From IMG/VR virus record IMGVR_UViG_3300042402_002470, positions 1-29,317 of that record: a DNA stretch of 29,317 bases, one strand, 5' to 3'. Positions 87 to 5,660 of the stretch are shown here, piece by piece. The stretch's first letter is position 1, and the number at the start of each line of letters is the position of its first letter. Source of the DNA: a virus. A model generated the notes under the pieces. The model worked only from the letters and a program-made list of their open reading frames with translations, made no database searches and was not told where the DNA came from. Made by a program: the position numbers and the translations under genes.

Positions 87-161
87 GCGCCCTTGGACAA
101 GATGGATTGTCAGAGGATTCTAACCCTTAGTAGACGGGATCGTTACCCGTAGGGCGCACCA
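87..161 (+). tRNA. Putative amber-suppressor tRNA (anticodon CTA); alternative reading Arg(TCT)
   Basis: Acceptor GCGCCCT/AGGGCGC pairs perfectly, followed by A and an encoded CCA. The D stem GACA/TGTC has loop AGATGGAT, and the T arm is ACGGG-ATCGTTA-CCCGT. Canonical numbering from the D stem, with one base (A112) at position 26, puts the anticodon loop at 118-124 as TTCTAAC: U33, anticodon CTA, A37. This would read UAG. The anticodon stem is weak in this register (pairs 114-128, 115-127 and 116-126 form). Shifting one base gives loop ATTCTAA and Arg(TCT), but leaves no position 26. A third option is a 4-bp stem GAGG/CCTT with an 8-nt loop. A separate, clean Arg(TCT) gene exists at 5585, which makes a second copy less needed. 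Confidence 0.6.
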
Positions 162-167
162 ATTATT

Positions 168-245
168 TCTGGGTTATCCGAGACAATCTCCGCCTGTTAA
201 GCGGTTGGCTGTTTACAAGTCCGGTTTAGCTAACTGGATACTGTA
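168..245 (+). other. tRNA-Asn-like relic or hairpin pair
   Basis: CCGC-CTGTTAA-GCGG looks exactly like an Asn(GTT) anticodon arm. A 7-bp hairpin TCCGGTT-TAGCT-AACTGGA lies 3' of it. No convincing acceptor stem or CCA is present, so a degenerate tRNA or a leader structure of the following gene are both possible. Confidence 0.25.
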
Positions 246-292
246 AGACATAGACGATAATCTGGGGCGCTACACATCAAAGGAGAAATAAA

Positions 293-886
293 ATGTCGTA
301 GATTGAATATGCTTGTAAGGAATTAGTTTTCCATTTTAACAAAAAACACTTAGAAGACGATACTATCCCAATGTGGGTTATCAAGTTTCGTGGCGAAACA
401 TATTATGTTAATCATGTAGACTGCAGCGTTCCGTGGTCAACCAAAGAAACGCCAGATAACAATCACACTAAAGGCAGTATCAAAGTTAAGAACTGCTTAG
501 TGGTAATTGATGATTCAAACACAGCAATTATTACACCATTAACTGAAGAAAATAAGAAAACTCTCGAAAGTAAGAAAAAATTTACACGCATTATTACTAG
601 TTATGGTGCAAAGTTGAAGGCAGCAATCGACGACTTAGGACTCGAAACTGGTTATATTAAAAAAGCAGGCGGCGGCTGTAGCACGTTATGGTTCATTACG
701 GAGTTGTATAATTACGATGAGTTTTTTCAACTTAAGTTTGCTATGACAGGCACAGACTTGCGAGTGTTAAAAGAAAACGAAGACTACTTCAAAGCGTATG
801 GTTCATCAACAGATGAACAAGAATACATCGACGACGACGAAGATTTGTATGATGATGAGGATTACGAATCATTATACGAAACTTAG
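293..886 (+). CDS. Acidic unknown protein with an in-frame amber codon at codon 3
   Basis: The function is not recognised. The only good ribosome-binding site (AAAGGAG, 7 nt before ATG) precedes ATG 293, which opens ATG TCG TAG. From TAG 299-301 the same frame is open through 23 plausible codons (I-E-Y-A-C-K-E-L-V-F...) to ATG 371, and then for 171 residues to TAG at 884-886. ATG 371 has no Shine-Dalgarno sequence. The C-terminus is strongly acidic, with runs of D and E. The natural reading is one gene of 197 codons whose third codon is UAG, decoded by a suppressor such as the CTA tRNA at 87-161. Alternatives are weak initiation at 371, a recently inactivated gene or a sequencing error. The terminal stop is also TAG, followed by a hairpin at 899-917, with the next in-frame stop (TAA) at 923-925. 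Confidence 0.6.
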
Positions 887-898
887 ACTACAAACGTA

Positions 899-917
899 GC
901 AGTAACTAGGTTACTGC
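899..917 (+). other. 8-bp hairpin after the stop codon
   Basis: GCAGTAAC-TAG-GTTACTGC is a perfect 8-bp stem with a 3-nt loop starting 12 nt after the terminal TAG. No U-run follows, so it is not an intrinsic terminator. It could stabilise the 3' end or stimulate readthrough. Confidence 0.4.
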
Positions 918-4687: not shown

Positions 4688-4822
4688 TTAGGCTAAAGTG
4701 GAAATGCGGAACGAGACTGCGAGTAACCACTATAAACAAACTCATATGGGCGTGTTAGAGGATGAAACGACCGGTGGTAACGGCGGAGTAAAAATTTAGC
4801 AGCAAGCTAATAATATTATTTT

Positions 4823-4912: not shown

Positions 4913-5006
4913 AGGCAGAGCTAGGCGCAAAAGTAGCACATTCCCTAGTGTAGCGAAAAGAGGAGCAGGTGTAGGGACCCGGAGCATATCCCCTCGCTGC
5001 CTTTTG
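4913..5006 (+). ncRNA. Candidate structured RNA ending in a terminator-like stem
   Basis: AGGCAG (4913-4918) pairs with CTGCCT (4997-5002), followed by a T-run to 5005. Inside are GCTA-(10 nt)-TAGC, like a D arm, and other short stems. It is too irregular to call a tRNA; a decayed class II tRNA or a small RNA is possible. The preceding hairpin CTATT/AATAG (4900-4914) overlaps it. Confidence 0.35.
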
Positions 5007-5584: not shown

Positions 5585-5660
5585 CTGTCTGTAGCTCAAC
5601 TGGAAGAGCAAGGGATTTCTACTCCCTAGGTTGCGAGTTCGACTCTTGCCAGGCAGGCCA
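5585..5660 (+). tRNA. tRNA-Arg (TCT)
   Basis: Acceptor CTGTCTG/CAGGCAG, G and CCA; anticodon stem AGGGA/TCCCT with loop TTTCTAC (TCT); T arm GCGAG-TTCGACT-CTTGC. Reads AGA/AGG, codons frequent in this AT-rich DNA. Confidence 0.93.

Follow-up and report, generated by a model that had tools for sequence, protein, structure and literature searches.

Within a 29,317-nt stretch of viral DNA (IMG/VR record IMGVR_UViG_3300042402_002470, positions 1 to 29,317; hereafter the window), a gene whose product carries an FHFNK motif has an in-frame amber stop, TAG, as its third codon and lies downstream of a tRNA gene with the probable anticodon CUA. Comparison with related phages points to a form of control in which a dedicated phage suppressor tRNA would gate a single operon through a stop codon placed close to the start; we put the probability of this reading at about 0.92. 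Ribosomes would start at the ATG at 293 and meet UAG at codon 3. In the absence of charged phage tRNA(CUA), host release factor 1 (RF1) would terminate most of them there, while in its presence an amino acid would be inserted at UAG and the full-length protein made. The gate might hold back or restrict the product while the phage tRNA pool builds up, or it might act as a sensor of release-factor activity.

We favor this reading because the TAG is conserved, coding constraint sets in right after it, a CUA tRNA co-occurs with it and, in one lineage, a TGA in its place is matched with a UCA tRNA. Readthrough at the amber codon is supported by these comparisons; a use of the gate as a timing or sensing switch, like the identity of the inserted amino acid, is something that we infer.

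The amber codon and the CUA tRNA in related phages

We scanned 2.9 million viral contigs for relatives, obtaining 26 loci with a protein query and 400 with an alignment query, the best 80 of which were kept. The gate was read from the DNA ahead of the conserved FHFNK motif in 70 distinct loci, whose proteins are about 40-98% identical. An in-frame TAG lies near the start in 66 of the 70, and neither TAA nor TGA occupies this place in any. A Shine-Dalgarno sequence and an ATG 2-5 codons ahead of the TAG were present in all 65 distinct TAG loci counted. The number of codons before the TAG varies among relatives, as do the codons on either side of it, arguing that the TAG is not part of a fixed DNA motif.

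From the TAG to the nearest ATG further into the gene (position 371 of the window), differences among relatives fall on codon positions 1, 2 and 3 in the proportions 7544/4380/21989, a pattern typical of coding sequence. Since these codons are under protein-coding constraint, translation most simply begins 5′ of the conserved block, and an N-terminus at ATG 371 only, named in the first-pass annotation as an outcome that would speak against readthrough, is ruled against. In the window, no ordinary start ahead of the conserved block other than the ATG before the TAG has a Shine-Dalgarno sequence. The order AAAGGAG-ATG-TCG-TAG reads just as first described, with the sole good ribosome-binding site directing initiation two codons ahead of the TAG, and the unbroken frame of 194 codons beyond it (302-883) was likewise confirmed. 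A search of GTDB genomes for the window protein gave no homologue.

tRNA genes at the related loci were detected with our own cloverleaf scan and with ARAGORN, in the flank retrieved around each locus. A tRNA with a CUA anticodon was found in 65 of the 70 distinct loci, always on the same strand as the gene: upstream in 60 (at 21-3729 nt) and downstream in 5 (at 246-584 nt). It is the sole tRNA within about 10 kb in 39 loci. In two further contigs of the 70, the CUA tRNA is located elsewhere on the contig. The co-occurrence of TAG and tRNA in related phages, proposed at the outset as a check, is thus borne out (66 and 65 of the 70 loci, respectively). All 61 distinct CUA tRNAs at these loci have a G1-C72 pair, with A at position 73 in 48 and G in 13.

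The tRNA of the window (87-161) lies on the same strand as the gated gene and ends 137 nt 5′ of the in-frame TAG. ARAGORN labels it Arg(TCT), and does so in L001 and L002 as well, where the tRNA sequence is identical; the label arises from the omission of position 26. When aligned with unambiguous CTA tRNAs of nine related phages, the TTCTAA of the window stands in register with CTCTAAA; this placement also accommodates the D stem, the T stem and position 26. The anticodon is therefore read as CUA, in agreement with the first-pass annotation, and the TCT call as a software error. Near homologues of this tRNA in L036, L050 and L033 also read CTA, and the window already encodes a proper tRNA-Arg(UCU) at 5585-5660, making it highly improbable that 87-161 is an ordinary Arg(UCU) tRNA. 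It scores 71.6 bits with our CTA-tRNA covariance model R1, being itself among the model's ten sequences, and was not listed in an Rfam search at E <= 0.1. It should be noted that the T loop is ATCGTTA rather than TTCRANY (A54 and T58 swapped) both here and in L036 (4834-4908), in an otherwise intact cloverleaf.

Two further arrangements were seen among the relatives. L025 has two in-frame ambers at 4971-4991 (ATG AAA TAG GAA GAA CAT TAG GTT...), possibly a double gate. In L031 (4311) and L055 (1576), an endonuclease-like open reading frame (ORF), of GIY-YIG type by eye, separates the tRNA from the amber gene and opens with a copy of the amber gene's start (MS*IEYAC... and MS*IEQ..., respectively), which looks like the result of a mobile-element insertion at the gate.

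Gated PTH2-like and HD-motif genes

A reverse test, in which we scanned for CUA tRNAs alone, yielded 120 stretches. In all sequences collected, we then counted the gate pattern, defined as a Shine-Dalgarno sequence, ATG, 1 to 8 codons, a stop and an open frame of at least 60 codons. There were 94 distinct cases with TAG, 11 with TAA and 11 with TGA. The FHFNK family accounts for 73 of the 94 TAG cases, and two other families recur with TAG: peptidyl-tRNA hydrolases of a PTH2-like type, and HD-motif proteins in which YHDCGK is invariant. Isolated, unrelated cases occur for TAG, TAA and TGA alike and represent background. Four lone frames of this kind near CUA tRNAs (L284:5416, L246:3223, L265:12487 and L318:7976) have so far no family support.

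PTH2 genes were gathered with a hidden Markov model within the sequences collected; a close-relative search with the PTH2 of Sinorhizobium phage Phosso as query gave no match. Against Pfam PF01981 (cut-off 23), the gated PTH2 proteins of Phosso and L221 score 72.9 bits (E = 3e-20) and 88.9 bits, respectively. A shorter type falls below the cut-off (19.6 bits in L077/L184, 16.6 bits in L236) and is hence called only PTH2-like. The HD protein matched no family in a Pfam search. Among its 53 distinct loci, 33 are gated by TAG, none by TAA or TGA, and 20 are ungated or otherwise arranged.

The three families are linked. In L077, Phosso and L221, a gated PTH2 gene lies upstream of an FHFNK gene that has no TAG of its own; in L077 the gated gene (ATG AAA TAG) is immediately 5′ of it. 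PTH2-like and HD genes are adjacent in L244, L278 and L324; in XacN1, and apparently also in pT24, the two are fused. The gate thus appears usually to head one functional module of linked or fused FHFNK, PTH2-like and HD genes. The single gated gene originally described is therefore a real case of something larger than was claimed: three gene families or more are involved, in numerous phages.

No other observation speaks as strongly for joint action of stop codon and tRNA as a matched swap of the two, albeit seen in one case only. The PTH2 gene of Phosso has TAG at codon 4, in a genome with two CTA tRNAs. Its orthologue in Agrobacterium phage Atu_ph07 instead has TGA at codon 7 (ATG ATT GGC GAA CAC TTT TGA), and this phage has a TCA tRNA at 430713-430787, reported as an opal suppressor with no target named (PMC6102473). 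In Phosso, a CTA tRNA annotated 'Undet' (PV764938, 171983-173142; L334) lies just 5′ of a phage gene annotated as serine-tRNA synthetase, an enzyme that possibly charges a suppressor.

TAG-gated genes were also found in the cultured phages XacN1, RAS14, CBB, pEa_SNUABM_47, ME3, pT24 and Arash. In XacN1, ATG AAG TAG at about 243735 is followed by 283 open codons of HD plus PTH2, whereas ORF364 in GenBank starts at an internal ATG, 243756. XacN1 had been considered a counter-example, having no FHFNK gene, and was dropped as such given this gated fusion. ME3 has an annotated CTA tRNA about 420 nt 5′ of the gated gene, and whole-record searches gave CTA-type tRNA patterns in RAS14, CBB, pEa_SNUABM_47, pT24 and Arash. 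In RHph_I1_18, also cultured, the FHFNK gene lacks an annotation, and directly 3′ of it lies a tRNA annotated as tRNA-Pyl(cta). Gene callers thus systematically miss gated genes, as here, or shorten them to an internal ATG, as in XacN1, Phosso and Atu_ph07.

The PTH2-like gene of RaK2 is ungated, and two CTA-pattern hits in this phage were discarded as they look like Arg(UCU) tRNAs. In Mycobacterium phage Pier (MG812494, near 94677; L416, gene start 1174), a gene for peptidyl-tRNA hydrolase opens with ATG TAG GTG, and a tRNA-Pyl(cta) lies about 250 nt 3′ of this gene; either a codon-2 gate or a normal GTG start would fit the arrangement.

Genetic code and alternative explanations

CUA tRNAs are a hallmark of phages that use a TAG-recoded genetic code (code 15; PMC13037316, PMC10607447), and the gate could in principle be one recoded codon among many. 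In six phage contigs, the window and part of XacN1, however, TAG terminates 121 of 1437 predicted genes (4-14% of gene ends in the six contigs, about 22% in the window), and a second, backup stop is no commoner after TAG than after TAA or TGA. Without filtering, antisense shadow frames dominated the genome-wide search for conserved readthrough, and filtered versions were used. One of these compared about 1.3 Mb for conserved start-less frames following the same stop, with coding-type substitutions and a Shine-Dalgarno sequence and ATG upstream, and left only the window gene family; in a second, TAG was not in excess over TAA. The pattern that defines code 15, with TAG a sense codon in many genes and avoided as a terminator, is thus absent, and we consider this explanation extremely improbable. 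The data instead indicate, from sequence comparison, that UAG is a normal stop elsewhere in these phages and that the gate is gene-specific, upholding the earlier proposal of readthrough without genome-wide recoding.

Decoding of the amber codon as pyrrolysine was rejected as unlikely: the tRNAs do not have the shape of tRNA-Pyl, with two bases at positions 8-9 and an anticodon stem of at most 5 bp, and in 18 phage records searched for pyrrolysyl-tRNA synthetase, nothing exceeded the PylS_Cterm cut-off.

Another account would treat ATG-(1-4 codons)-TAG as a mini-ORF, with termination at the TAG, restart at a nearby non-canonical start and the tRNA incidental. The codon directly 3′ of the TAG is indeed ATT, a rare natural start codon, in 44 of the 65 loci, but it is AAA, ACT or AAC at others, and many gated PTH2 genes lack any start codon between the gate and the domain. 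Restart would, moreover, permit TAA or TGA, yet only TAG is found beside CUA tRNAs and TGA beside a UCA tRNA. We give this account very little credence. A more serious contender is that readthrough is real but constitutive, the TAG setting a low level of expression or carrying a special residue, with no switch involved. In its favor, the TAG is directly followed by A in 59 and by G in 6 of the 65 loci, a context known to favor suppression. A special residue cannot be what is needed, since in ungated relatives the protein begins at or near that point (MEMVCKE... in L077, MIELACDD... in L038) and in Phosso and Atu_ph07 the FHFNK protein is joined to other sequence; the PylS result also argues against it. 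Overall, we regard constitutive readthrough as possible, at somewhat less than even odds.

Several observations weigh against gating by a dedicated suppressor tRNA. L018 (a 150-kb contig) and L013 (a 23-kb fragment) have the TAG, and a search for a CUA tRNA on them found none. A third locus without a CUA call, L019, has a tRNA (4735-4811, 187 nt 5′ of the amber gene) with an 8-nt anticodon loop, GCCCTAAC; it is possibly a CUA-reading tRNA whose loop is enlarged. The clade of L038, L045 and L049 has lost the TAG and retains the tRNA, with no other gated gene found on these partial contigs. The anticodon stem is often weak: of the 61 distinct CUA tRNAs at FHFNK loci, 37 have a mismatch at the 31-39 pair (C-A in 26), which widens the anticodon loop. 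Finally, about one third of the HD loci are ungated, as is every canonical PTH2 paralogue seen in genomes with gated genes (e.g. XacN1 ORF295).

A broader proposal is that in several phage lineages the suppressor tRNA serves as a diffusing signal and, by way of the start-proximal stop, permits expression of a translation-related operon (PTH2-like, HD-motif, FHFNK). The circuit would respond to tRNA charging or to the activity of release factors, and thereby report the state of host translation. We would give this an even chance.

Known systems and features of the window

TAG-recoded phages with suppressor tRNAs include crAss-like phages, phAss-1 and some jumbo phages (PMC10607447, PMC9523058, PMC13037316). 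There, as proposed here, a phage-encoded CUA tRNA reads UAG as sense, but their in-frame TAGs are spread over many genes, whereas in our case TAG is a normal terminator and the effect would be confined to one start-proximal codon of one module. Orphan suppressor tRNAs have been described in standard-code jumbo phages (XacN1, PMC5852040; RsoM2USA, PMC8504454; Atu_ph07, PMC6102473), and the authors of the XacN1 study sought readthrough targets and found none (PMC5852040). These are the same tRNAs, for which candidate targets can now be named: the HD-PTH2 gene of XacN1 (TAG at codon 3) and the PTH2 gene of Atu_ph07 (TGA at codon 7).

The proposed mechanism resembles selenocysteine and pyrrolysine recoding of UGA and UAG in that a dedicated tRNA would decode a stop in particular genes. 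It differs in its ordinary cloverleaf tRNAs, in having no need of a special amino acid or sign of PylS above the cut-off, and in the position of the stop at the very start of the gene, outside the conserved domain. The prfB gene for release factor 2 is autoregulated through an in-frame UGA with a frameshift at codon 26. Here too an early stop would tie expression to termination efficiency, but by zero-frame suppression by a phage tRNA rather than by frameshifting. In synthetic amber-suppressor AND gates, the product requires both the mRNA and the suppressor tRNA; the phage gate would follow the same logic, but is natural, conserved and widespread.

A literature search, with subscription papers and preprints outside its scope, returned suppressor tRNAs of jumbo phages as well as recoded phages, but neither a gate close to a gene start nor a target. 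The pairing of a start-proximal stop with the phage's own suppressor tRNA thus appears to be a form of gene control not yet described. The suppressor tRNAs of standard-code phages have been a puzzle, and the gated genes provide candidate targets in cultured phages (XacN1, CBB, pEa_SNUABM_47, ME3, RAS14, pT24, Arash, Phosso and RHph_I1_18). Many large bacterial viruses carry the putative gate 2-5 codons past the start, and the gated gene would then probably be made only once the phage tRNA works. This suggests a natural gene control with a tRNA as signal, tied to proteins likely to act on translation.

The window protein (coordinates of the gene in the table below) has an N-terminal beta domain (residues 1-80, with the motif FHFNKKHLED...IPMW) and a C-terminal alpha/beta domain (about 93-159). 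In AlphaFold models, the N-terminal domain reaches a predicted local distance difference test (pLDDT) score of 92 when modelled alone, and the C-terminal domain is alpha/beta. The protein matched nothing in Pfam or PHROG. Fold searches against solved structures gave no convincing relative: the best Z was 3.3 for the N-terminal domain, and for the C-terminal domain Z reached 7.2 with ACT/ferredoxin-like folds, a value that common arrangements also attain. Its link to PTH2 in an operon hints that the protein may act in translation.

Positions of the main features in the window (all coordinates in nt)
Feature	Position	Strand	Basis or remark
tRNA of suppressor type, anticodon CUA at positions 34-36 by homology	87..161	+	complete cloverleaf plus CCA
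Shine-Dalgarno sequence AAAGGAG	279..285	+	read from the sequence
Start codon ATG	293..295	+	sequence; followed by TCG
In-frame amber TAG at codon 3 (putative gate)	299..301	+	sequence and conservation in relatives
Remainder of the gated gene, 194 open codons	302..883	+	N-terminal beta domain and C-terminal alpha/beta domain
Terminal TAG of the gene	884..886	+	not conserved; TAA in L001 and L003
8-bp hairpin GCAGTAAC/GTTACTGC 3′ of the terminal TAG	899..917 (arms 899-906/910-917)	+	read directly
Clear tRNA-Arg(UCU)	5585..5660	+	leaves no need to read 87-161 as another Arg(UCU) tRNA

The first-pass annotation had also drawn attention to the hairpin after the terminal TAG and to a TAA 13 codons further on. 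Both are present, the TAA at 923-925 and in frame, but the arrangement is not conserved in relatives, the gene ending with TAA in L001 and L003, and the hairpin is probably unrelated to the gate. Among viral structure models, an FHFNK-type beta domain is also seen in DUF2061 proteins and in the APS kinase of phage phiRSL1 (BFVD A0A6J5PX74, A0A6J5L4Y1 and B2ZYE1).
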